The translations under genes and the position numbers were made by a program. A stretch of 64,000 bases of DNA from Paracoccus contaminans (lineage in GTDB: Bacteria > Pseudomonadota > Alphaproteobacteria > Rhodobacterales > Rhodobacteraceae): the NCBI RefSeq assembly GCF_002105555.1, contig NZ_CP020612.1, positions 2,286,001 through 2,350,000 on the forward strand. The letters are read 5' to 3'. Positions 6,565 through 44,555 of this stretch are shown in pieces. The notes beneath the pieces are model-generated. The model did no database searches, was not told the DNA's origin, and saw only the letters and a program-made list of their open reading frames with translations. The first letter of the stretch is position 1, and each line of letters starts with the position of its first letter.

Positions 6565-6598
6565 CCGCGCCCCATCCCCATTCATCAGCCCGCAATGA

Positions 6599-6666
6599 CC
6601 CGCCCTCGTGGCGGGGTGAGCCGTGGTCTGCCTGACAGGCAGACGGGAAGGTCCAGTGGACCTTCC
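6599..6666. repeat. Three consecutive stem-loops in the holin-endolysin gap
   Basis: Three perfect inverted repeats stand almost end to end: 6599-6615 (CCCGCC/GGCGGG), 6626-6644 (GTCTGCCT/AGGCAGAC) and 6646-6666 (GGAAGGTCC/GGACCTTCC). They fill the 159-base gap before the endolysin. None is followed by a T-run, so a simple terminator is not obvious. They could be an RNA-processing or translation-control element, or a REP-like repeat. Confidence 0.7.
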
Positions 6667-6723
6667 CAAGCGGCGAACGCACCGAGCCCTGCGAGGGGCC
6701 GGAAACTCGTTCTGGAGGCCCCC

Positions 6724-7398
6724 ATGACCACGACTTTCCACCGCCATTGGCGCGACGTGTCCGAGAGCACCTGGCGTTGGCCGAATTTCAGCCCGGCCGA
6801 AATCGCCTGCCGGGGCACCGGCAAGCTGCTGATCAACGAACCCGCGATCGACAAGCTGCAGGCGCTGCGCGACCGGCTCGGCAAGCCGCTGATCGTCCGC
6901 TCGGCCTACCGCAGCCCCGAGCACAACCGCGCCGTGGGCGGCGCCACCCGCTCGAAGCACCTCGACGGCGCCGCGTTCGACATCGCCATGGCGAACCACG
7001 ACCCGGTGGCCTTCGAGGCGGCGGCGCGGGAGGTCGGGTTCCTCGGCTTCGGCTTCTATCCGCGCTCGGGCTTCATCCATGTCGACCTTGGGCCCGCGCG
7101 GCAGTGGGGCGAGCGCTTCCCGGTCCGGGCGACGGCATTCGCAGCCGAGACGCCGCCCGCGCGCGAGGTTTTGGCGCAGAGCCGCACCATGAAGGGTGGC
7201 GGGGCAGCTGGTGTGGCGACGCTGGGCGCAGCCGGGGTCGAGGTTGCGCAGAGCGTCCTGGCCGAGACGCAATCCGCCATTCTGCCGCTCGTGCCGTATC
7301 TCGACACGCTTCGCTGGGTGTTCATCGCCGTCGCGCTCGGCGGCATCGCAGTCACGATCTATGCCCGCCTCGACGACTGGAAGCGGGGGCGGCGATGA
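6724..7398 (+). CDS. M15-family endolysin (D,D-peptidase) with C-terminal transmembrane segment
   Basis: A 224-residue peptidase M15A (peptidoglycan L,D- or D,D-peptidase) used as the phage endolysin. The zinc site is visible as SKHLDGAAFD (H79, D86) and FIHVD (H119). The family domain occupies about residues 10-130. It is followed by a linker and a predicted transmembrane helix (about 195-215, WVFIAVALGGIAVTIYARL). ATG 6724 follows a GGAGG motif; an in-frame extension upstream runs through the stem-loop region and is rejected. The stop overlaps the next start (ATGA). The C-terminal membrane anchor is unusual for an M15 endolysin. Confidence 0.86.
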   Translation: MTTTFHRHWRDVSESTWRWPNFSPAEIACRGTGKLLINEPAIDKLQALRDRLGKPLIVRSAYRSPEHNRAVGGATRSKHLDGAAFDIAMANHDPVAFEAAAREVGFLGFGFYPRSGFIHVDLGPARQWGERFPVRATAFAAETPPAREVLAQSRTMKGGGAAGVATLGAAGVEVAQSVLAETQSAILPLVPYLDTLRWVFIAVALGGIAVTIYARLDDWKRGRR

Positions 7399-7652
7399 TC
7401 GGCGGGCTCCTCACCGGGATCGCCGCCAGCCCGTGGATGCGGTCCGCGCTGCGCTACGGCGCCATCGCGCTCGCCGTGCTGCTGTTCCTGTTTGCGCTTC
7501 GGCGGTCCGGCGAGCGAGCGGGACGCCTCGCCGAACGCCTTGAGACAACGGAGAAGGTCAATGATGTCCAACGCCAGATGCTGGAAGCAGCGGCTCGCCG
7601 CCCTCGCGATCACCACGAGCTTGCTGAGCGGCTGCGCGACGGTTCGTTCTGA
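7395..7652 (+). CDS. Rz-like inner-membrane spanin
   Basis: An 85-residue protein with an N-terminal transmembrane segment (about residues 14-34, LRYGAIALAVLLFLFALRR) and a charged, probably helical remainder with EKVNDVQRQMLEAAARR. This is the architecture of Rz i-spanins. It starts inside the endolysin stop codon (ATGA). A lipoprotein gene begins inside it in another frame at 7561, which is the classical nested Rz/Rz1 arrangement that disrupts the outer membrane at the end of lysis. The call rests on architecture and context, because spanins conserve little sequence. Confidence 0.7.
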   Translation: MIGGLLTGIAASPWMRSALRYGAIALAVLLFLFALRRSGERAGRLAERLETTEKVNDVQRQMLEAAARRPRDHHELAERLRDGSF

Positions 7653-7812
7653 GAACGGGAGGCTGGCGACATGCCCGCCCGTGGTCGAGTATGGCAGGGA
7701 GTTCCAGGCGCGGGCGGCCGAGGAGCTGGCCTTGGTGCCACAGGGATCGGCGCTCGCGGACATGTTGAGCGACTACGCTGTCATGCGCAACCAGGCGCGG
7801 GCCTGCGGATAG
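7561..7812 (+). CDS. Rz1-like outer-membrane spanin lipoprotein
   Basis: An 83-residue protein with a lipoprotein signal peptide: basic start, hydrophobic core and lipobox LSGC at residues 21-24. The mature part is short. The gene begins at ATG 7561 within the Rz-like gene in a shifted frame and extends 160 bases past it. Together they should form the spanin bridge across the periplasm. A longer frame opens upstream at 7492 but would bury the signal peptide, so it is rejected. Homologous small lipoproteins are frequent in Rhodobacterales prophages (general knowledge). Confidence 0.72.
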   Translation: MMSNARCWKQRLAALAITTSLLSGCATVRSENGRLATCPPVVEYGREFQARAAEELALVPQGSALADMLSDYAVMRNQARACG

Positions 7813-7888: not shown

Positions 7889-8353
7889 TCAGGATCGACG
7901 TGCGTTGTCGTCGCCAATCTCGATCTGAAGTTCTTCTGTTCGCAGCCAGATCGACAGGCTTTCCGTCGAGGCTTCCACCTGTTCCAGCTTCCGCAGGGCG
8001 CACTCCCATACCGTCGCCACGCGCCACCCGTCTTCGAGGAGTCTTGTGCGAAGGGCACTGTCTCGAGCGGTGTTCGCATCGAACTTCGCCCGCCAGAACT
8101 CCCGCCGGGTTGCCGGTACGGTCGTGTAGCGGCACCCCTCGTGTCGGTGCCAGAAGCAGCCGTGCACGAAGACCACGGCGCGGTGCTTCGCAAGGACAAG
8201 GTCCGGTCGACCGTGAACCTTGCCGGAATGGAGCCGGAAGCGGAAACCGCGCGCGTGTAATGCGCGCCTGAGAGCCAGCTCGGGCTTGGTGTTCTTTCCC
8301 CTGATTCCCGACATCATCCGGGAACGGGTCTGCTGGTCCACGATATCGGTCAT
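7889..8353 (-). CDS. vsr: Very short patch repair endonuclease (Vsr)
   Basis: A 154-residue Vsr endonuclease, which nicks 5' of T in T:G mismatches produced by deamination of 5-methylcytosine. The N-terminal RSRMMSGIRGKNTKPE block, the catalytic Asp D51 in GRPDLVL and the zinc-site region FVHGCFWHRHEGC are all present. Length matches the family (about 135-155). It is divergent from the cytosine methyltransferase with a 67-base shared upstream region, the usual functional pairing. In MORC/Z1-type systems Vsr-like nucleases have also been proposed as effectors, so this one may repair deaminated sites or act as the system nuclease. Confidence 0.95.
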   Translation of the reverse strand: MTDIVDQQTRSRMMSGIRGKNTKPELALRRALHARGFRFRLHSGKVHGRPDLVLAKHRAVVFVHGCFWHRHEGCRYTTVPATRREFWRAKFDANTARDSALRTRLLEDGWRVATVWECALRKLEQVEASTESLSIWLRTEELQIEIGDDNARRS

Positions 8354-8420
8354 ATCCGTCCTGGTCTTCGTCCCTGAACCTGGTATACACCGGCTGAATG
8401 AAATTCGTCAGGAGCCTGAT

Positions 8421-9998
8421 TTGCCTTCCACTTTCGGCATTGTCGATCTGTTCGCCGGCCCGGGCGGACTTGGCGAGGGGTTCGCTTCCCTCGTCGAGGA
8501 CGGCCATGCGCCGTTCCGGATCGGCATTTCGGTCGAGAAGGAGGCGTCGGCCCATCGGACCCTGACGCTGCGTGCTTTTCTGCGCGAGTACCGTGCACGT
8601 CATGGCGTCTTGCCGAAGGAGCTCATCGATTTCCATGCCGGGCTGGCATCCGAACCGGACTGGTCAGCCGTCGATGCCGAAGCCTGGCAGCATGCCATCG
8701 ACGAAGCCCGCGCGCTTGAGCTCGGCACCAAGGCTGCGGCGACCGCCATTGATGGCGCCATCGCGACGCTGAAAGCAAAGTACGACGACACGATCCTGAT
8801 CGGCGGCCCGCCCTGTCAGGCCTATTCCCTGGTGGGGCGTGTCCGTTCCAGAGGCAAGGTCGGCTACGTCCCGGAGGAGGATGCGCGGCACTACCTCTTT
8901 CGCGAGTACATCCGGGTCCTCGACAAGCTTCGCCCGGCCGCCTTCGTTATGGAAAACGTCAAGGGCATGCTTTCGTCGACAGTCGAGAGCCGGCTTGTCT
9001 TCGAGATGCTGATGGAGGATCTGTCCTCGCTCGGCACGGGTCACGCCCATCACTACGAACTTCGTGCCGTCCGGGTCGAGGATGGCAAGGCCAGCCTGCA
9101 GGAAGCGTCACAGCCCTCGGACTTCATCGTGCGCTCCGAGGCGTTCGGAGTCCCCCAGCGTCGCCACAGGGTGATCATCGTCGGCATCCGTTCGGACCTC
9201 GCAGGACGGACCAGGGATGCGCAGATCGCTGTGTCGGGTAGAGTGCGGACCGTCCGCGATGTAATCGAAACGATGCCATCCTTGCGGAGCGGCATCAGCC
9301 GCGGGCTCGACGACGCGGCCGCCTGGCGGGAAGAAGTCGTCGGCGCCGCGAGCATGCTGGCCGGCATTTCCAAGGGGAAGGACGACCAGGCGCTCCGTGA
9401 GGCATTCCTGAGCGTTTCGGAGCGAGTGAAGGAAAATCCGCCTATCGTTCGGGCTGCGTCACGGTTGCCAGACGGCTACGGCACTTCAAACGATGAGTTG
9501 CTACAGTGGATCGAGCGACCGGAACTTCGCGCGATCGCTCAGCACGAGACGCGCGGGCACATGGCGTCGGACCTGGGCCGCTACTTGTTTGCTGCAGTGT
9601 TCGGAGCCGTCCGTGGCTGCAGCCCGAAAGCCGCCGATTTCCCTCTAGCGCTCAGCCCCGATCACCGAAACTGGCACAGCGGTGTGTTCAATGACCGCTT
9701 CCGGGTTCAGCTGGCGGACGAGGCATCGACCACGGTCACGAGCCACATCTCGAAGGATGGCCACTACTTCATTCACCCCGATCCGATCCAGTGCCGGAGC
9801 CTGACGGTTCGCGAAGCCGCCCGGCTGCAGACATTTCCTGACGATTACCTGTTTCTAGGCAACCGAACGCAGCAGTATGTCCAGGTCGGAAACGCTGTGC
9901 CGCCGCTCCTGGCACGTCAGATCGCAGCGGTTGTGCACGTCACGCTTCAAAAGCCAGCAACCCAGCGAACGAACATGTTCGTTTCAGCGAACGATTGA
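8421..9998 (+). CDS. DNA (cytosine-5) methyltransferase
   Basis: A 525-residue C5-cytosine methyltransferase. All major motifs are readable: I (LFAGPGGLGEGF, about residues 9-20), IV (GGPPCQAYS, catalytic Cys near 132), VI (ENVKGM, about 177), VIII (QRRHRVIIVG, about 247), IX/X (TVREAARLQTFPDDY near 462 and VGNAVPP near 489). The target recognition region between VIII and IX is long and its site cannot be read from sequence. I chose TTG 8421 because GGAG stands at 8411 and residue 1 directly precedes motif I. Its 3' end overlaps palindromes that feed the downstream operon. It probably marks self DNA for the defence cassette. Confidence 0.93.
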   Translation: MPSTFGIVDLFAGPGGLGEGFASLVEDGHAPFRIGISVEKEASAHRTLTLRAFLREYRARHGVLPKELIDFHAGLASEPDWSAVDAEAWQHAIDEARALELGTKAAATAIDGAIATLKAKYDDTILIGGPPCQAYSLVGRVRSRGKVGYVPEEDARHYLFREYIRVLDKLRPAAFVMENVKGMLSSTVESRLVFEMLMEDLSSLGTGHAHHYELRAVRVEDGKASLQEASQPSDFIVRSEAFGVPQRRHRVIIVGIRSDLAGRTRDAQIAVSGRVRTVRDVIETMPSLRSGISRGLDDAAAWREEVVGAASMLAGISKGKDDQALREAFLSVSERVKENPPIVRAASRLPDGYGTSNDELLQWIERPELRAIAQHETRGHMASDLGRYLFAAVFGAVRGCSPKAADFPLALSPDHRNWHSGVFNDRFRVQLADEASTTVTSHISKDGHYFIHPDPIQCRSLTVREAARLQTFPDDYLFLGNRTQQYVQVGNAVPPLLARQIAAVVHVTLQKPATQRTNMFVSAND

Positions 9999-10023
9999 CA
10001 ATCGTTCGCTCAGGTGAGATATA
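9963..10023 (+). promoter_or_regulatory. Palindrome-embedded promoter of the Z1/MORC operon
   Basis: Two perfect palindromes lie side by side: 9968-9983 (AACGAACATGTTCGTT) and 9986-10010 (arms AGCGAACGATT and AATCGTTCGCT around GAC). The unit CAGCGAACGA occurs at 9963 and 9985, a 22-base spacing that places both on one helix face. A consensus -35 TTGACA (9995-10000) sits in the second palindrome, 17 bases before a -10-like GATATA (10018-10023). The stop codon of the methyltransferase is inside the element. This layout fits a repressed or autoregulated promoter, and the HTH domain of the next protein is the obvious candidate regulator. Confidence 0.7.
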
Positions 10024-10186
10024 TGGTTCGTGCCAGCATACGGCACTGTGTGTAACTCATCTGGATAGAGCGTAGGGGCGAGGCAAATCCCGAGCAGAAG
10101 CGTCGTTGGGCCCAGTCCACGGCGGGTCTGTGGAGATGTCTCTTCGACTGCGACCGCATTCCCTTCCAGATCATCGCGGAGAACCC

Positions 10187-13021
10187 ATGTCGCTCTCATC
10201 CCTTCTGAAGGACCTGCGCGTCCAATCGGGCCAATCGCTCCAGCAGGTCGCCGAAAAGGTCGGTTCGTCCAAGGCCTACCTGTCCGAGCTCGAACGCGGC
10301 GTGGCGAAGAACCCGGGCATCGACCTGCTGAAGGCGCTCGCCCACAACTACGGCGTTTCCGTTGCGACGCTGATTGGCGAAGCCGACGCGGCGCCGTTGC
10401 CCCCGCCCGTGGCCGGTCAGGTCGAGGCATGGGTAAGCAACATCCGGAAGGAGCAGGCTGCCGGGCTGGATCTCGAAACCGCGGCAAACGAGGCCCGCGC
10501 GTCCTTCGAGCGACTTCTTGGCCCGCTCGACCCGCAGCACGAGGCGAACTGGAAGGCGGCTGTCAGCGAGCTTGAAGCCGCGTTCGAGCGGAAGATCGAG
10601 TATCTTGGCAACTATTCGCTCCGCAAGCCGCGACGGCCGCACTGGTATGACGGTCCGCGCGCGGGCGATCTGCACTGGCCGAAGCTCGAGGCCTTCCTGC
10701 TGTCTCGCAAGGGCTGGTCGAAGGAGACCGTTGCGAGCATCGACGCAACATCGACCGAGGTAGTCTCGCTTCTCGAAAATCCCGCCCAGAGCGAGTTCCG
10801 GGGTCGAGGACTGGTGGTCGGCTATGTGCAGAGCGGGAAGACTGCCAACATGGAAGCGGTCATCGCCAAGGCGGTCGATGCAGGGTACCGCTTCGTGATC
10901 ATCCTGACAGGCATGACAAATTCGCTGCGAACGCAGACTCAGGATCGCATCGAGTCCGATCTGGTCGAGCGCAACAAGTACGGGTGGCACAGCCACACCA
11001 CAAGCGACTCCGACTTCCGGAAGCCGGCGAGTAAGTGGTTTTCGATTATGGACCCGGTGCAGATCGCTGCCGTGAAGAAGAATGTGGCGCCACTTGAAGC
11101 GCTTCTCGGCACGATCGAGAAGACGCCGCCAACGCACCGCGCGCGCATGCCTGTGCTTATTGTAGATGACGAATGCGATCAGGCCGGCGTCAATGCGACC
11201 GGCAGTCAGTACAACATGACGGCGATCAACGCGCTCATCCGCAAGATTCTCGCGGCACTGCCGAAGGTCCAATACGTCGGATACACGGCGACGCCCTTTG
11301 CAAACGTGCTGATCAACCCGGAGAAGCCGACCGGCGGCCTGGACGACCTATATCCCGAGGACTTCATCACGAGCCTGCCAAAGCCCGAAGGTTATTTCGG
11401 TCCGGAGAGCCTGTTCGGGCGCGACCCGATCGATGCCGATGACGAGAAACCGGAGGAGTCCGGACTCGACATGATCCGTGGGGTCGATGACGCCGAGGTA
11501 GCCCTCGTCCGTCCACCGTCAGCGAAGGACCGTTTCACCTTTGAGCCCGGCATCCCGAAATCGCTCGACAAGGCGCTTTCCTACTTCGTGCTTGCAACCG
11601 CCGCCCGCTATGTACGTGGGCAGTCGCGCCAGCACAGTTCGATGCTGGTGCACACGACGGTCTACACGCACCCGCATCACGCGCTGGCCGACAAGATCGC
11701 GGCCTGGCAGAACGGGCTCGCCAAGAAGATCTCGAAGGGCGACGAGAAGACGTTCGATCGACTTGAGAGGCTCTGGCTCGAAGAGGTGGCCAAGGTCGAT
11801 GCGGGCCGCTTCGGCCTTGCGCCGACATCGTTCAGCGCGCTGAGGCCTGAGCTCGAGAAGGTCCTCGATGACATCGCGATCGTGGTCGAGAACAGCGACA
11901 GCGAGACGCGGCTCGACTACGCGTCGGGGCCGAAGAAGTACATTGTGGTCGGCGGCTCGGTGCTCGCGCGTGGTCTCACAATTGAGGGGCTGGTCGTCAG
12001 CTACTTCGTGCGCTCATCGAACCAGTACGACACCCTCCTTCAGATGGGCCGATGGTTCGGATATCGGCCCGGTTACGAGGACCTCCCGCGGATCTGGATG
12101 ACCGACGACCTGCGGACATCGTTCCGTGATCTGGCGACGGTCGAGGCCGAGATCCGGGCCGACATTCAGCAGTACCGCAAACGCGAGGTGACACCGGCGG
12201 ATTTCTCGATCCGGGTGCGACGCATTCCTGGATTGGCCATCACCGCTGCCAAGAAGATGTATGCGGCCAAGGCATGCGACGTGAGCTTCTCGGGAGAGCA
12301 CATCCAGACCATACGCTTCCCGCACCGTGACGAGGACTTTCTTCGGCACAACTGGGAGGCTGCGGCCGAGCTGGTCGATGCGGCAGCGAGCCAAGGTATC
12401 AAGCCTGCGCGGCGCGGCCGTCTGATCGAAGGCGTATCCTTCGATCTCGCCATGAAGTTTCTGGAGACTTACAGAAGTGACCAGCGCGATCTGATCTCGG
12501 GAAAGCTGTTGGAATACATCCGGCTCGAGGCGAGTCGGGCCGATCAGCCGTACGAAACCTGGAACATCGCGATCGTCGAAACAGGCGGAACCCGCCGCTC
12601 CGTTGAGCCGCTTGGTGCCTTCGGCAATGTCGGCCTCGTCAACCGGGCACGCCTCAAGGGACTGACACGCGACGGTCTCGCCGACATCAAGGCTCTGATG
12701 TCGCGGGACGACGTGCTTATGGACGTCACCGGCTCGCCCGATGACAGGTCTTGGGACAGCGTTAAGGAATTCCGTCAGGCGCTGGTCGGTGACCGGGTTC
12801 CACTGCTGCTCCTTTACGCAATCGATGAGGCGTCGGTACCGAGGTCTGAGAAGCTGCGCGAACCCCTCGGCGCGGTGCGCGACATGCTGGGAATTGGCCT
12901 CGTTCTGCCAGAGCGGGGCGCGAAGACAAGCTATGTCCGCGTCCCGATCAACCAGGACGACGGCGACGAGGAGGACGTTCAGGCAGACATCGACGGCGAT
13001 GCCGGACAGGCTGCGAAATGA
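10187..13021 (+). CDS. HTH-Z1 superfamily II helicase fusion
   Basis: A 944-residue protein. Residues 1-65 form an Xre/Cro-type HTH (VQSGQSLQQVAEKVGSSKAY and following). The rest is a Z1-domain superfamily II helicase-like ATPase: Walker A GYVQSGKTANM (about 211-221), DEAD-box-like VDDECD (about 326), GYTATPF (about 364), GGSVLARGLTIEG (about 590) and an arginine-finger-type QMGRWFGYR (about 618). Start ATG 10187 follows GCGGAGAA. It overlaps the next gene by ATGA. Z1 helicases with GHKL ATPases, methyltransferases and PD-(D/E)XK nucleases were described as restriction-linked systems by Iyer, Abhiman and Aravind (2008). The N-terminal HTH may couple regulation to the effector. Confidence 0.88.
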   Translation: MSLSSLLKDLRVQSGQSLQQVAEKVGSSKAYLSELERGVAKNPGIDLLKALAHNYGVSVATLIGEADAAPLPPPVAGQVEAWVSNIRKEQAAGLDLETAANEARASFERLLGPLDPQHEANWKAAVSELEAAFERKIEYLGNYSLRKPRRPHWYDGPRAGDLHWPKLEAFLLSRKGWSKETVASIDATSTEVVSLLENPAQSEFRGRGLVVGYVQSGKTANMEAVIAKAVDAGYRFVIILTGMTNSLRTQTQDRIESDLVERNKYGWHSHTTSDSDFRKPASKWFSIMDPVQIAAVKKNVAPLEALLGTIEKTPPTHRARMPVLIVDDECDQAGVNATGSQYNMTAINALIRKILAALPKVQYVGYTATPFANVLINPEKPTGGLDDLYPEDFITSLPKPEGYFGPESLFGRDPIDADDEKPEESGLDMIRGVDDAEVALVRPPSAKDRFTFEPGIPKSLDKALSYFVLATAARYVRGQSRQHSSMLVHTTVYTHPHHALADKIAAWQNGLAKKISKGDEKTFDRLERLWLEEVAKVDAGRFGLAPTSFSALRPELEKVLDDIAIVVENSDSETRLDYASGPKKYIVVGGSVLARGLTIEGLVVSYFVRSSNQYDTLLQMGRWFGYRPGYEDLPRIWMTDDLRTSFRDLATVEAEIRADIQQYRKREVTPADFSIRVRRIPGLAITAAKKMYAAKACDVSFSGEHIQTIRFPHRDEDFLRHNWEAAAELVDAAASQGIKPARRGRLIEGVSFDLAMKFLETYRSDQRDLISGKLLEYIRLEASRADQPYETWNIAIVETGGTRRSVEPLGAFGNVGLVNRARLKGLTRDGLADIKALMSRDDVLMDVTGSPDDRSWDSVKEFRQALVGDRVPLLLLYAIDEASVPRSEKLREPLGAVRDMLGIGLVLPERGAKTSYVRVPINQDDGDEEDVQADIDGDAGQAAK

Positions 13022-14037
13022 CGGACGGAACCCGTGCGGGCATCGGCTGGGAACGCCTGCGGCAGGAGTCAGGTGCGCAGGCGAGTGATCTGGGCGTGCC
13101 CTCCCTGGTGCTTGACGCCTCGGCTGGCGCTGGCCCGGCCCGCCTCGCGATAGGAGCTGAGCGCGAAGCGCGGCTTCTTGTCCCGCTCGCAGCCGGTGAG
13201 CGGTTCCCGATGGTCCACGATACGCACGGTCTTGAACTCAGGGACAGCGTGCTTCTGCTGCAGGGACAGCCGGTCCGGTTCATCGATGTCGCCTGCCGCG
13301 GCGAGCGTCTCGAGGCCGTCTTCGAGAAGCTGGTCGATGAAGTCGTTCGGCGCCTGAGAGGGGGCGCCGCGCCGGCGAACGCGCTCGAGGATGCAATCAC
13401 CGACTTTCGCAATCTCCTCTCGGGCGCTAACCGCGAGCGTCCTTCGATCGAAACCGCACTCGGGCTGATTGGCGAGCTCATCATCCTGAATCGGCTACTT
13501 CTTGTTGATCCCGACGCCTGGCAACTCTGGACCGGGCCGGCTGGCGGCCGTCACGACTTCCGTGGCGGTGACCGGGCAATCGAGGTCAAGACTTCGCTTC
13601 GTGCCCAGTCCCGAATCGTGGAGGTATCTGCAATTGACCAGCTGGCAGCGCCCCCCGGTGGACATCTGCTGCTCGCGCACTGCGTGCTCGAGTATGACGG
13701 GGCTGGGCCTCTTTCGGTTGTGGGTGAGGCGACGCATGCGTGCACGATCGCAAGCGATCCTGCCGCCGTGGCCGATCGGCTCGCCCTGCTCGGATACGAT
13801 CAAGCCCAGGCCGATGAGTGGTCCTCGTTCAGGTTCTCCCTGTTCTCGCAGGAGCTCTATTCGGTGACCGACGGCTTTCCGCGGCTCACCCCCGCCTCGT
13901 TTGCGGAGGGAGAACTGCCGGTCGGGGTCAGCCACTTCCGCTACCGGGTGAATCTCGATTTTGCGTCGGAGTTTCGATTCAGGCCCGCCGAGGCCGACAA
14001 TGCGCTTCAGGAGATAGTGTCATGTCTAAGCCTCTGA
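13018..14037 (+). CDS. PD-(D/E)XK motif protein (DUF4420-like)
   Basis: A 339-residue protein with a restriction-endonuclease-like core: GELIILNRLL (Glu in a helix, about residue 152), GGRHDFR (Asp about 181) and AIEVKTS (E-x-K about 191-193). This order and spacing match the PD-(D/E)XK family annotated as DUF4420, which recurs in Z1/MORC operons. The N-terminal ~130 residues are less recognisable and may mediate interactions. It starts with an ATGA overlap of the helicase gene, and the ATPase gene begins 16 bases before its stop. It is the most likely DNA-cleaving subunit of the cassette, although an intact active site does not prove activity. Confidence 0.85.
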   Translation: MTDGTRAGIGWERLRQESGAQASDLGVPSLVLDASAGAGPARLAIGAEREARLLVPLAAGERFPMVHDTHGLELRDSVLLLQGQPVRFIDVACRGERLEAVFEKLVDEVVRRLRGGAAPANALEDAITDFRNLLSGANRERPSIETALGLIGELIILNRLLLVDPDAWQLWTGPAGGRHDFRGGDRAIEVKTSLRAQSRIVEVSAIDQLAAPPGGHLLLAHCVLEYDGAGPLSVVGEATHACTIASDPAAVADRLALLGYDQAQADEWSSFRFSLFSQELYSVTDGFPRLTPASFAEGELPVGVSHFRYRVNLDFASEFRFRPAEADNALQEIVSCLSL

Positions 14038-15881
14038 GTCTCCATGCGGAACGCTTCGCGGCTGCAGGTGGCATGGCTGCCGACGGAATGAAGAAGCTTC
14101 TGGGCACACCTGCGCTGTCCCTGCTGGAGACGGTGGTGAGGGAGACGGTCCAGAACAGCTGGGATGCACGGCTCGTCGAGTCCGGCGTCGGCTACAGGAT
14201 TGGCTTGCGAGAGCTGCGGCCAGAGGAGGCTGCCATTCTCCGCGATGAGATTCTCGCCAAGCTCCCTCCGTCCAAGGAGTCCGCAGACCCACTGCTTGCC
14301 TACCTTTCCTCGAAGCATCCGGTCGTCATGGAGATTTCCGACTGGAGGACCCGTGGCCTCGGCGGTCCATCTCGGGCGAACGTGCTGCCGAAGCCAGGGG
14401 AGCACAACGACTTCGTGAATTTCGTGCGCAACATGGGTGCCCGTCGTGACATGGCGGGCGGTGGCGGCACTTATGGCTACGGGAAGAGTTCGCTCTATCA
14501 GCTCAGTCGATGTGCCACGGTCCTCGTTGACTCGGTCTCGCTGACTCCTTCCGCGCGGATCGTTCACCGCTTCATTGGATGCCACTTGGGCGATGCCCAC
14601 GACAGCAAGCGCCATGGCCGGCTGACCGGTCGCCACTGGTGGGGCGTGGCCGATGCCGACGACGCGGACGTGGTCGATCCGGTTACTGGTCGCAGCGCCG
14701 TTCGGCTGCGGAAGGCGCTCGGGCTTCCTGATCGGGGAGCCGACGCCACGGGAACAACGCTGGTCGTGCTCGACCCCGATCTCGAGGACCGCCCGCTCGA
14801 GGCGGTTGCGGCCGAAATCCAGGAGGCGCTTCTCTGGTACCTCTGGCCAAAGATGCTCCTCGGCGCCGATGGCCAAAGGGCCATGGCCATCGAGGTCGAA
14901 CTCAACGGAGAGCTGTTGCCGCTTCCGGCACCCGAAGATTTCCCGCCACTCGACCTGTTCGTTGAGGCCTATCGCACCGTGAAGGCTGGAGGGCCAAACC
15001 TGACCAGGATCGCTTCCGAGCGGCCCATCCAGCACCTCGGCCTCTGCTCCATCAGACGCGGCTTCAGGAGGCCTCGGCAGTTTCTCGGCGACCCCGCTGG
15101 CAGCATCATCCCGGCCACCAGTGCGCACATAGCCCTCATGCGTCCGGTTGAACTGGTCGTGAAGTACATCGAGGGCACCCACCTGCCAAGTGACACCGTC
15201 GAATGGGCCGGGGTCTTCATCTGTGACGACGATCCCGTAGTTGAGCAAGCTTTCGCCGACGCTGAGCCACCTGCCCACGACGACTGGATCCCGGACAAGA
15301 TGCCGAAGAGCTGGGCAAAGACCTTCGTGCGGGTTGCGCTGGCAAGGCTGAAGTACCTCGCGGCATCATACGCATATCCGGCTTCGTCCTCCACGTCCGG
15401 AGCATCCGAGCAGCCACCGCTTGCCAAGGCGGCCGACCTTCTCGGCAGCTGCATGCCCGCAGTCGGAGGTACGGGCGGCGGTGGCGGCGGGTCGCGCGGC
15501 CGTGGAAATGGCCGAGGCGGCGGTGGTCGCGGCGGAGGCCGTAGCTGGCGGGTCAGCGAGCCACGTTTCGTAGCGTTGCAGGAAGGCGCTACCGGGGCCG
15601 AAGCGCTCTTCGAGATCGACGTGGACAACAATACGGAGCGGGCAATCCGCCTTACCGCCATACCTGCTCCTGTGATCGATGGTGTCTTGGCAGGTCCGGA
15701 CGAGGGTGACGTCGTCGTCACGTTCGTATGCTGGGAAGATCAGGACGGCAATCAGCTGACCACGTCGCCTGAGCTGGTCGCAACGCCGGACGAGAGCGGC
15801 AGCTATCGTGCGCGTATCATCGTGCCTGATGTTGCAGCGGCCGGAGTGCGAGTGGCGGCAGCTGAGCAGGCACCGTCATGA
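14022..15881 (+). CDS. GHKL ATPase of the MORC/MutL-like defence class
   Basis: A 619-residue protein. The GHKL ATP-binding motifs are clear: N-box VRETVQNSWDA (about residues 40-50, with Glu, Asn and Asp), G1 DWRTRGLGG (about 106) and G2 GGGGTYGYGKSSLY (about 146-159). A middle transducer-like region follows. Residues of about 483-508 form a Gly/Arg-rich linker with RGRG and RGGG units. The C-terminal ~110 residues look like a beta-rich domain. Start ATG 14022 follows AGGAG and lies within the previous gene. By family knowledge these ATPases act as ATP-gated DNA clamps; a role in sensing or looping foreign DNA is inference. Confidence 0.87.
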   Translation: MSKPLSLHAERFAAAGGMAADGMKKLLGTPALSLLETVVRETVQNSWDARLVESGVGYRIGLRELRPEEAAILRDEILAKLPPSKESADPLLAYLSSKHPVVMEISDWRTRGLGGPSRANVLPKPGEHNDFVNFVRNMGARRDMAGGGGTYGYGKSSLYQLSRCATVLVDSVSLTPSARIVHRFIGCHLGDAHDSKRHGRLTGRHWWGVADADDADVVDPVTGRSAVRLRKALGLPDRGADATGTTLVVLDPDLEDRPLEAVAAEIQEALLWYLWPKMLLGADGQRAMAIEVELNGELLPLPAPEDFPPLDLFVEAYRTVKAGGPNLTRIASERPIQHLGLCSIRRGFRRPRQFLGDPAGSIIPATSAHIALMRPVELVVKYIEGTHLPSDTVEWAGVFICDDDPVVEQAFADAEPPAHDDWIPDKMPKSWAKTFVRVALARLKYLAASYAYPASSSTSGASEQPPLAKAADLLGSCMPAVGGTGGGGGGSRGRGNGRGGGGRGGGRSWRVSEPRFVALQEGATGAEALFEIDVDNNTERAIRLTAIPAPVIDGVLAGPDEGDVVVTFVCWEDQDGNQLTTSPELVATPDESGSYRARIIVPDVAAAGVRVAAAEQAPS

Positions 15882-16783
15882 CGGCCATTGCCTATCCCTT
15901 CCTTCGTCCCGGCCCCGACCGGATCAGCGCCGGGCCCTGGCTCGTCACGCGTGACGGCGAACCCTGCGTCTTCGCGGACGGCCACCTCGATCACTTTGAC
16001 TACTCGACCAACCTCGAGGCAGTTCGTCATTTCAAGGTCGATGTGGAAGGGGTAGCCGCTGACACCGGGCTTAGGGCCGACGAGATCAAGCTCCTCTGCG
16101 TCGTCACTTTCGGCACCGGTGGCCGCCGCCTCCAGCGCGCGAGAAGAATTGTTACCCGGGAAGTGATCCAAGCCGGTCGCGAGGCCATTGTACTGGCGCT
16201 AGCAATCGATGGTCGCGAGGTCTCAGAGCTCTTCGTGCTCACGACCGAAATCATCCTTCTTTCGTCGGGTACGGTTCGTCGCCGGGTCTCGCCAGTCACG
16301 ACAGGTGCAAGACTTTGGCGAGACGAATTTCGCGCCGCGGTAGAACCGCTCGGTGCGCGCTTCCCGATGGAAGCCGTGAGCTTTGCGACTGTGTTCCCGA
16401 CCGGCCATGGTGATGCACTCTGGTACCTCGACTGGTCACCGCAGACCCTACACCATGACTTCGCAACGTCGGTCCGACTGCTGATCAACCTGGACAGGCC
16501 GGCCTTTGTTGAAGCCGTGCAGCAAGCGGACGAGGTCACACTGAGGATGCTAATGTGCTCGGTAACCACCCAGATGGTCAGGTCGGCCATCGATCTCGAT
16601 CATTTTCCGCTGGACCAAACGGAGGCCAGTCCTTCCTCGGTGTCAGCTGTGATCGAGGCATGGGTGGAACAGGCGTTCCCCGGTCAGTCGGCGGAGGCTG
16701 TGCGGACGCTGGCACAGCATGACCCGTCACGTTTTGAACTCGCGATCGGAAGCCTCTTTGCAGGAGAGCTCGGCAATGAGTGA
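15878..16783 (+). CDS. Uncharacterised protein of the MORC/Z1 operon
   Basis: A 301-residue protein I do not recognise. It starts with an ATGA overlap of the MORC-type ATPase gene and overlaps the next gene by eight bases, so it belongs to the same transcription and translation unit. The sequence is mixed alpha/beta, without signal peptide, membrane segment or obvious catalytic motif. The central part has a beta-rich stretch (residues of about 60-135) and the C-terminal half is helical. Conserved presence next to GHKL/Z1 genes would suggest a structural partner, which can only be inferred here. Confidence 0.7.
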   Translation: MTAIAYPFLRPGPDRISAGPWLVTRDGEPCVFADGHLDHFDYSTNLEAVRHFKVDVEGVAADTGLRADEIKLLCVVTFGTGGRRLQRARRIVTREVIQAGREAIVLALAIDGREVSELFVLTTEIILLSSGTVRRRVSPVTTGARLWRDEFRAAVEPLGARFPMEAVSFATVFPTGHGDALWYLDWSPQTLHHDFATSVRLLINLDRPAFVEAVQQADEVTLRMLMCSVTTQMVRSAIDLDHFPLDQTEASPSSVSAVIEAWVEQAFPGQSAEAVRTLAQHDPSRFELAIGSLFAGELGNE

Positions 16784-17522
16784 GTTCCGCCTCATGCCCC
16801 GCCTCGACAATCACGGCGTTCGGCGACTGATTAGCCTGCCGGATTTGCTGCGAACAGGCTCCATCAGCGAGCGAATGGAGGCGGCCGGCACTTCGGTCTC
16901 ATATGCTTCCAGTGGCGGATCGCGAGCCGACGCGGCCGATCTGAAAGTACTCCAAGAGCAAAGCGTTGCCCTTGCCAAACGCTTCGGATTTCCGAACGAG
17001 GGTCGAGCCGCCGGCAGGGCCTCGTTCGATGCAGAATTTGCGCAGTGGCTGGTGGAGGCTCCCATCATCAGCGGCGGTGAGGCGTTGCGGGATGATGTCT
17101 GGGCATTCGTTGCATGTTGTATCGCCCCGGAGGTGGTGCTCTGGCGCTTCGAGGACGGCCACGCTGATCGCTTCCATGGTGGTCTGCGCAACACCTTCCA
17201 GCGGCTCTGGCTCCGAGCACGTTCGCTGGATCGGGGTGCAGGAGCGCCGCAACGGTGGCAACTCGTCGAGGCGCTGTCGGAGGATGCGGTGGTTCAGATT
17301 GTGGAAAGGCCATCCATCGGGGGCGACCCCATGCTCGCTCGCGCAATTGCAGAAGCTTGGCTCGCGACCGCGAACCGGATTGGTGCGCGCCGAATGGAGG
17401 ATGTGACTCGCCGAGCGGTGCGAAGAATCAGGATCGACAACGAGATTACGTGCCTGGCCTCGTTGGGTGAGCCAGAGCTTGTCAGCCGACTGCAGGGATT
17501 TTTCGACGAGGCTGCGTTATGA
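16776..17522 (+). CDS. Uncharacterised terminal protein of the MORC/Z1 operon (possibly DUF6339-like)
   Basis: A 248-residue, mostly helical protein. The segment DDVWAFVACCIAPEVVLWRF followed by RFHGGLRNTFQRLWLRA, and later EDAVVQIVERPS and ARAIAEAWLA, gives the pattern I associate with DUF6339 proteins that accompany GHKL/Z1/PD-(D/E)XK operons; I am not certain of this. ATG 16776 has AGGAG upstream and lies inside the previous gene, so it is co-translated. There is no membrane or secretion signal. It closes the operon: the next gene is on the opposite strand and ends 52 bases away. Confidence 0.68.
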   Translation: MSEFRLMPRLDNHGVRRLISLPDLLRTGSISERMEAAGTSVSYASSGGSRADAADLKVLQEQSVALAKRFGFPNEGRAAGRASFDAEFAQWLVEAPIISGGEALRDDVWAFVACCIAPEVVLWRFEDGHADRFHGGLRNTFQRLWLRARSLDRGAGAPQRWQLVEALSEDAVVQIVERPSIGGDPMLARAIAEAWLATANRIGARRMEDVTRRAVRRIRIDNEITCLASLGEPELVSRLQGFFDEAAL

Positions 17523-17574: not shown

Positions 17575-18888
17575 TCAGTAGCCCCAACCAGAGCTGACGG
17601 GGGGATCGCCAAGCGGATCTTCAAGCTCGTCGACTGCCGGGAACAGATCGCCTTCGCCCGCAAAGGATTTCGCAGCATCCAGTCCGGTTTGAAGATCAAG
17701 CTCGGCTAACCGTGACTCTACCCACTGCAGCATCCGGCCCAGATCCGAGTCGACGGCTAGGCTGGCTTCCTGCGGCAGGCCGGAGATCCATTCGCGGATT
17801 TCGCGGGCCTCCCGACGCAGCTCAATTATCTGCCGTAGGTGAGAGAGTCGCGTCTCCTCGCGTTTGAGGCGGGCCTGTGCGAGCTGTCGCCGTTGCTGCA
17901 GGATTTTCCATTGCCTCTCGCGCTCCTCACGCTCCTCGCGGCGCACACGAATGGTCTCTAGAATGAGCTCTATGCCGGCGACTATTTCGGGGACCATCCG
18001 TTCCACGCGTTGCGTCTTGCCGTCACCCCATGTCTTCCGCAGGCCGTCCGCCCACGCATCGATCGAGAACACGAGTTCGCCGGTCCACGCGGTCACATAT
18101 TCCGGCCAGGGTGGACTGCTGCCGAACGAAATGCTGTCCCAATCGTTGCGCCGAAGGGACCGTGCCCGTTTCTCTTTCCTCTTCTCCTCCCGAGCGATTT
18201 CTTCTGGGGTCGGTACGTATTTCAGCCTTCTCGTTCGTTCGAGCAGGGTGAAGCTGATCTTGTCCGCGCCCTTCTGAACGGACATCTTCTCTCCGTCCGC
18301 TGTCAGGCTCAGCCCGACTTCGTCGAGCGTCCGCGCCAACGCGTCGAGGAAAAAGCAAGCACGTTCGGCGGACGGAGCGCCGACGATCACGCCACACTGG
18401 CCTGGCGCCGTGGCGCTGAGGACGCCCTCCTTGTCCGGCTTCCTGGTCCGAAGGAATCTCACCGTTTTCGCCACCGAGGCGTGTGGGTTTTCTACCAGAG
18501 GCATTGGGGATTCTGGCGTCGCCTTGATGGTAGCAGCCCGGACTTCGCGCTCAGCCTTTCGCTTCCGGGCGAGTTCGGCGACGCTGTCAGGAAGAGCTGA
18601 GCTGGCCCCGCGGATGCTCACCTGATCGAGGCTTCGATCCCTCAGTTCAAGGAAGGGCGGCACTTTCGGTTGTTCTCCGGCTGCCACCTTGGCCCAGTAC
18701 CCCCGGGGCGGTACGGGAATGCGATGACGACTGCAGGCCTTCGCGAGCCCCCGATCCGATATCCCGAATTCCTGTGCAAGCGCTGTCATCGGCTTGCTCC
18801 AGACCAGGTCGTAGAGGTCCCGACGGCTAAGTATCTGTGAAGTCAACAATTCTTGAACTCTCCGCAATACAGCTTCGCGCGGAAGCAA
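17575..18888 (-). CDS. Island-associated protein with N-terminal HTH-like region
   Basis: A protein of about 425-437 residues, convergent with the defence operon. The N-terminus contains LSRRDLYDLVWSKPMTALAQ followed by an HTH-like helix (FGISDRGLAKACSRHRIPVP) and RGYWAK, a combination frequent in genomic islands of Proteobacteria. Residues of about 300-375 are highly charged and predicted coiled coil. The start is uncertain: TTG 18888 is the longest, but GGAG around 18863-18860 would better serve TTG 18849, closer to where related proteins seem to begin. The function is unknown; it may be a regulator or a nucleic-acid-binding accessory of the island. Confidence 0.7.
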   Translation of the reverse strand: MLPREAVLRRVQELLTSQILSRRDLYDLVWSKPMTALAQEFGISDRGLAKACSRHRIPVPPRGYWAKVAAGEQPKVPPFLELRDRSLDQVSIRGASSALPDSVAELARKRKAEREVRAATIKATPESPMPLVENPHASVAKTVRFLRTRKPDKEGVLSATAPGQCGVIVGAPSAERACFFLDALARTLDEVGLSLTADGEKMSVQKGADKISFTLLERTRRLKYVPTPEEIAREEKRKEKRARSLRRNDWDSISFGSSPPWPEYVTAWTGELVFSIDAWADGLRKTWGDGKTQRVERMVPEIVAGIELILETIRVRREEREERERQWKILQQRRQLAQARLKREETRLSHLRQIIELRREAREIREWISGLPQEASLAVDSDLGRMLQWVESRLAELDLQTGLDAAKSFAGEGDLFPAVDELEDPLGDPPVSSGWGY

Positions 18889-19434
18889 TATCCCGCAGCG
18901 CCGTTTTAGCTGTCATCGCGACCCGGGTGAAACTTGGAGAAGGTTGGATATCAGACCCATCCCCTCCGCCAGTTCTTCCTGGTGTCACGGGTTGTTGCAG
19001 CAGGGGCCCGGTCATCTGGATCGGCAAGCTGCCGGTTTTCTGCTGTAGCGCGGCGCGCATTACCAGTTGCCGGCGGCCGGACCTGCGCCATTGTCAATGG
19101 GATCAAGATAACAAGGACGGTCAGACCTGCCGATCGGCCCGGCAGAGATCGCCGACGGCAGGCTGGCTGAGGCCGGCCAAGATCACTTTGCGCAGGCCAT
19201 CTGCGCGCCACTGTCGCGCATGCCCGCTTGTGGGCGAGCCCTAAGCCTGCCTTGGCAACCTGTTGCCCGCCAGCAGGGATGGCCAGGCGGGCAGGGGCAG
19301 CGGTTGGGATCAGCCCGCTTGCTCACCGGCCGACCGCCCTGCCGCTGCCATCGGCGCGGCGGGTGCAGCGGCGGCTTGTGGCGCGGCGGGCCGAACGAGA
19401 CAAAAGCGCAAGCCGAACGGGACGGGTGGTCGGC
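18889..19434. other. Non-coding boundary between the defence cassette and the second prophage
   Basis: I see no convincing gene in these 546 bases; the open frames are Arg/Ala-rich products of GC skew. The stretch holds the left copy of a 28-base direct repeat at 19349. It also holds a short tRNA-Ser-like 3' end (CCCCTCCGCCA at 18961-18971, without a convincing T-arm), which may be a degraded attachment site or chance. Confidence 0.5.
19349..19376. repeat. Left copy of 28-base perfect direct repeat bracketing the second prophage
   Basis: This 28-base sequence is identical to 37141-37168. The two copies lie just outside the last minus-strand phage gene and inside the broken portal gene, so they enclose the defective prophage exactly. 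The sequence is GC-rich and codes for an Ala/Pro string in the portal copy, which raises the chance level somewhat. It may be an att core or a deletion scar. Confidence 0.65.
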
Positions 19435-36480: not shown

Positions 36481-37175
36481 GCCGGCGGCTCCCCGGCCTC
36501 CCGCGGCGCCGGCTCGGGCATGGGGACTACGACAGGCGCGCCCTTGAGCGCCGCGCGCCCCTCGACCAGCTTGCGCAGGGCCGCCTCGCTCAGCCCTTCG
36601 ACAGAAGCGAGGTGCGGCAGCAGTTCCAACGCGATCGCGTCGTCCTCCACATTTGCCAGGAACGACAGGGCGTCGCGCAGGGCCGCGGTCCGCGCCTTGT
36701 TGGTCTCGGCCTTGGCCTTGCCGACGCTGGCCGTCTCCAGTTCGTTCTCAGGCCGCGGGCGCCACACATTCGGAACGCGCGCACCGGGCAGGTTGTAATC
36801 GACGATCCAGGCGACCAGCGACTGCCGCAGCGTGGCCGACAGCAGGTCCGCGTCGCTGTCAACCAGAAGCTCGAGGATCTCGGCGTGGGTTTCCGATGCC
36901 GCACGAGAGCCGTTCGCGCCGATGTCCGTGGTCAGCGTCTCGCCGGTGACGCAGATCGCGATCTCTTTATCCCAGTAGGCCAGGAAGTCGCTGTAGGTCA
37001 CCGCCCCGGATCGGGCCGCCTCGAGGAACTTGACGTCGGTGCTGACCGGGACCACCACGGCCGAGGAACTGCGGATGTTCTCGAGCGTGTTCAGCAGGCG
37101 AGTCTGCTCGGCCGTCAGCTGGCCATAAGGCGACTGCGCGATCGGCGCGGCGGGTGCAGCGGCGGCTTTCGTCAT
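36477..37175 (-). pseudogene. DUF935 portal protein, 5'-truncated (Mu gp29-like)
   Basis: Only the C-terminal ~230 residues of a portal protein remain. AEQTRLLNTLENIRSSSAVV, DVKFLEAARSGAVTYSDFLA, TGETLTTDIGANGSRAASET and the SLVAWIVDYNLPG block correspond to the last half of DUF935 portals, which normally have 450-550 residues. The first readable codon is ATG 37175. Upstream sequence, although open, has no portal similarity and belongs to the opposite-strand HMCES gene. The break coincides with a copy of the 28-base direct repeat. No terminase gene follows, so packaging is disabled. Confidence 0.82.
37141..37168. repeat. Right copy of 28-base direct repeat, inside the portal remnant
   Basis: Identical to 19349-19376. 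Here it encodes residues 3-11 of the truncated portal frame (K-A-A-A-A-P-A-A-P). Together with the left copy it defines a 17.8-kb unit that contains every minus-strand phage gene. Confidence 0.65.
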
Positions 37176-44480: not shown

Positions 44481-44555
44481 TGGCTCCGGCGGTAGGGATC
44501 GAACCTACGACCAATTGATTAACAGTCAACTGCTCTACCGCTGAGCTACGCCGGA
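44481..44555 (-). tRNA. tRNA-Asn (GTT)
   Basis: A complete 75-base tRNA with encoded CCA. Acceptor arms TCCGGCG and CGCCGGA pair, the anticodon loop is CTGTTAA with GTT, and the T-arm reads GTAGGTTCGATCCCTAC. Its 3' 17 bases serve as the attachment site of the adjoining element and are duplicated at 37914, so integration left the tRNA intact. Confidence 0.95.

Follow-up and report, generated by a model that had tools for sequence, protein, structure and literature searches.

A conserved five-gene cassette in Paracoccus contaminans resembles an ATP-driven, methylase-linked restriction system

The window, a stretch of 64,000 nucleotides from Paracoccus contaminans (contig NZ_CP020612.1, positions 2,286,001 to 2,350,000), carries five core genes encoding a superfamily 2 (SF2) helicase, a PD-(D/E)XK nuclease, a GHKL ATPase, a protein that we call X, and a DUF6339-like protein, next to a C5 methyltransferase gene and vsr. 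This conserved five-gene cassette has the look of a restriction system that is driven by ATP and served by a DNA methylase of its own. It unites a known helicase–nuclease pair with a little-known three-gene module, GHKL–X–DUF6339 (the triad), which in bacteria and archaea is also found next to other restriction systems. The travelling triad is the point of interest. Family matches and motifs confirmed the seven-gene locus beside prophage lysis genes that had been described in the original prediction.

All five core genes lie on the plus strand. The helicase gene (10187–13021) encodes DTLLQMGRWFG at residues 615–625. The nuclease (13018–14037, 339 aa) matched PF14390 (DUF4420) with 146 bits, and its residues E153, D180, E189, and K191 were invariant in 21 of 21 aligned sequences. 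The GHKL ATPase (14022–15881, 619 aa) was recognized by its N-box (residues 40–49), G1 (107–115) and G2 (147–155), which were invariant in all rows covering them (24 or 25 of 26), by a PDC-M33A match of 38 bits and by hhalign to triad GHKL proteins. The Pfam search with X (15878–16783, 301 aa) gave zero matches; its AlphaFold2 model (pLDDT 82, pTM 0.54) has a beta-sandwich at the N-terminus and a helical C-terminal part. The DUF6339-like protein (16776–17522, 248 aa) was modeled as nearly all-helical (pLDDT 92, pTM 0.87), and PF19866 (DUF6339) was matched at E ≤ 1 by 17 of the 19 orthologues in its alignment, the best at 8.9e-7.

The vsr open reading frame (ORF; 7889–8353, minus strand) encodes a very-short-patch repair endonuclease (TIGR00632, 137.3 bits against a cut-off of 97.85; PF03852, 99.7 bits) and is divergent from the C5 cytosine methyltransferase gene (8421–9998, plus strand; PF00145, 147 bits). 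The start of the latter is uncertain, as the ORF is open from 8220 with an in-frame TTG at 8421. Its product contains FAGPGG, PPCQAY, ENVKG, QRRHR, and GNAVPP, which we take to be C5 methyltransferase motifs.

The original prediction was made to depend on co-occurrence of the partners outside this genome, and the core genes were found together in 27 full loci. The C5 methylase adjoined the core in 25 of these, in 24 at a distance of no more than 1 kb (at L010 only a piece is present, at a contig end), and Vsr was beside the core in 24. The exceptions for the methylase were L091, cut at a contig end, and the Synechococcus plasmid locus L024, where it sits in an adjacent divergent operon. Methylase and Vsr were placed on either side of the core and in either orientation. 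Pairwise identities were compared for 20 loci, after dropping a near-copy (L003), three loci with distant methylases (L007, L014, L019) and three with missing genes (L010, L024, L091); L013 also has a more distant methylase. The five core genes showed mutual correlations of 0.85–0.96, while the core correlated with the methylase at 0.38–0.46 and with Vsr at 0.22–0.33, and methylase with Vsr at 0.61. The weaker correlations of the core with these two genes still exceeded permutation (p 0.0005–0.0075). The methylase/Vsr pair is thus a largely separate module that in part tracks the core and has often been swapped. For example, L004 and L006 are 97% identical in the core and 62% in the methylase, and the window and L011 are 39% and 82% identical, respectively. 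Exchange need not bring a new target site, because the stretch between motifs VIII and IX was common to the 11 orthologous methylases compared.

We give about even chances to the reading that the cassette performs methylation-gated, ATP-dependent restriction, in which the methylase would gate restriction of DNA and the triad would act as a clamp or licensing complex. The ATP-driven, methylation-guided defense first proposed is partly supported, as a predicted function.

Twelve triad contexts were opened as a non-random sample without a counted control set: 11 of 26 listed plasmid records (L090, L092, L093, L096–L102, L109) and genome G123 (L095). In 11 of these contexts the fetched stretch includes a gene for a DNA methylase or a restriction endonuclease, recognized from the annotation or, in the case of L095, with a profile; the annotation of the Halobacterium stretch (L093) contained neither. 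The restriction genes varied: alongside Dcm and Vsr there is an AlwI-like gene in Planococcus and another Type II endonuclease in Arthrobacter, while Priestia has a Sau3AI/MutH-type endonuclease with Dcm, Ligilactobacillus an N6 methylase with S subunit, Lactococcus an AlwI-like gene, and haloarchaea and Synechococcus Dcm. C5 methylases also occur with no endonuclease annotated. Three haloarchaea had phospholipase-D-family genes near the triad, two of them also helicase and DUF1998 or Zn-binding genes, neighbors that we take to be DISARM-like. Several loci from Gram-positive bacteria and Deinococcus (L098, L099, L100, L102, L109) have a small ORF of 75–80 codons directly upstream of the triad; the single one tested had no PADLOC match.

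This variety of restriction types beside the triad favors a less probable explanation, to which we give some weight: the triad may be an independent second line that accompanies restriction systems, the methylase and nuclease being the guarded system and not reaction partners. On sensing that restriction is under way or has been breached, or that motors have stalled, it would halt growth or degrade nucleic acid. An explanation resting on nuclease-free loci, of which there are three, is doubtful; it also draws on the DNA looping that Iyer et al. (PMC2292703) proposed for such ATPases and on the link of eukaryotic MORCs with chromatin compaction (PMC11879086). We regard as similarly improbable an island for DNA repair or methylation maintenance that plays no part in defense: mismatch repair also uses Vsr and GHKL ATPases (Iyer et al., PMC2292703), but the distribution is patchy, the context is defense islands and prophage, and parts are exchanged.

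To the left of the cassette lie tail and lysis genes of a prophage family related to gene transfer agents (GTA_TIM, Phage-tail_3, M15 endolysin), including an M15 peptidase/endolysin (6595–7398, plus strand; PF08291, 95.9 bits; phrog_17373, 396 bits) and the last lysis-module gene (7492–7812, plus strand; phrog_26778, 74.7 bits). Of 61 genomes sampled from the genus (the window's own included), 51 had matches to DNA of this stretch at E ≤ 0.001, often at several places. Similarity to the window ended at 7787–7807 in seven of eight prophage copies compared and at 7401 in one, and the cassette begins at the same spot. The genes following the lysis module differed in seven inspected copies (L076, L077, L079–L083), several resembling metal-handling or metal-resistance genes by eye. 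This place is possibly a cargo slot. In Loktanella the blastn block opens at 7745, within the last lysis-module gene, so that the final 68 nt of this gene are included, with an in-frame stop not present in the window; the Loktanella copy was thus probably derived from a phage-side position. GHKL relatives were absent from 50,697 phage records, and an IMG/VR scan likewise gave zero. On the right, a 437-aa ORF of no confident family (17575–18888, minus strand) has 65 residues near its N-terminus that are 45% identical to genes on core-carrying Agrobacterium/Rhizobium plasmid islands (L022, L023). An exact 28-nt direct repeat (19350–19377 and 37141–37168) brackets a minus-strand phage block (tail tip, fibers, Phage_cap_E) and is a possible pair of prophage attachment sites. 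At about 37914, ~6.6 kb from the tRNA-Asn gene (44481–44555), there is a 17-nt copy of the 3' end of this tRNA. Much of a low-GC stretch (38–43 kb) lies between the two and may be an island that integrated at the tRNA-Asn gene.

Kinship with MZA, tentatively suggested earlier, is partial. The nuclease is homologous to MzaD (hhalign 1e-42), yet reached 62.4 bits against a cut-off of 420, and a further component is homologous to its MZA counterpart (PADLOC 289 bits, hhalign 7e-153), although its 374.7 bits fall short of the NCBIfam cut-off, 1500. In profile scans the GHKL protein had zero matches to the MutL-like ATPase MzaB (hhalign to five MZA-type GHKL proteins, 0.3%), while the same PADLOC library scored another GHKL gene on L022 at 159 bits for MzaB. 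The predicted lack of an AIPR (MzaE) gene was borne out, as the GHKL, X and DUF6339 proteins had zero AIPR matches in profile scans, and hhalign to a profile of five AIPR proteins gave 0.8% for X and 0.2% for the DUF6339 protein. A merely divergent MZA system is therefore very unlikely, as far as sequence can test.

The PADLOC candidate system PDC-M33 (models A, B, C) has the same order, GHKL, a protein of ~280–345 aa, and DUF6339. The GHKL protein matched PDC-M33A (E 1.5e-10; hhalign to triad GHKL proteins, 99.8%, 1.5e-29). X did not directly match the PDC-M33B model, which misses the Synechococcus X-like protein too; in hhalign X reached 43% against the whole set of X-like proteins from triads, 72.5% (3.2e-5) against those of Synechococcus and haloarchaea, and 0.3% against the Gram-positive ones. 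The DUF6339-like protein did not directly match the PDC-M33C model; in hhalign it reached 93% (3.2e-7) against the DUF6339 proteins of the triads and 6.7% against their Gram-positive subset alone.

Of the ATP-dependent restriction systems CglI and NgoAVII, CglI is described as consisting of three genes, none of them for GHKL, X or DUF6339, and its nuclease is a phospholipase D (PLD) with a B3 domain; the cassette nuclease is PF14390 PD-(D/E)XK, not a PLD (HKD) nuclease. The Corynebacterium diphtheriae BH8 island (PMC5379612) has an additional EcoRII-like endonuclease and three unclassified proteins. The type-3 MORC/paraMORC restriction operons that Iyer, Abhiman and Aravind described in 2008 (PMC2292703) share with the cassette an SF2 helicase whose C-terminal domain bears DThhQXuRhFG, here DTLLQMGRWFG, a restriction-endonuclease-fold E-D-ExK protein, here E153, D180 and E189-x-K191, a GHKL ATPase, and frequent Dcm and Vsr. 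Text sections 4–6 of that article contain no gene pair matchable to X and DUF6339, although a figure may show one. The ATPases of those operons are MORC or paraMORC proteins with an S5 domain, and ours was placed by its GHKL boxes as a GHKL protein. In VcSduA, a paraMORC3 Shedu protein (PMC12137116), a GHKL ATPase domain is likewise joined to a PD-(D/E)XK nuclease in defense.
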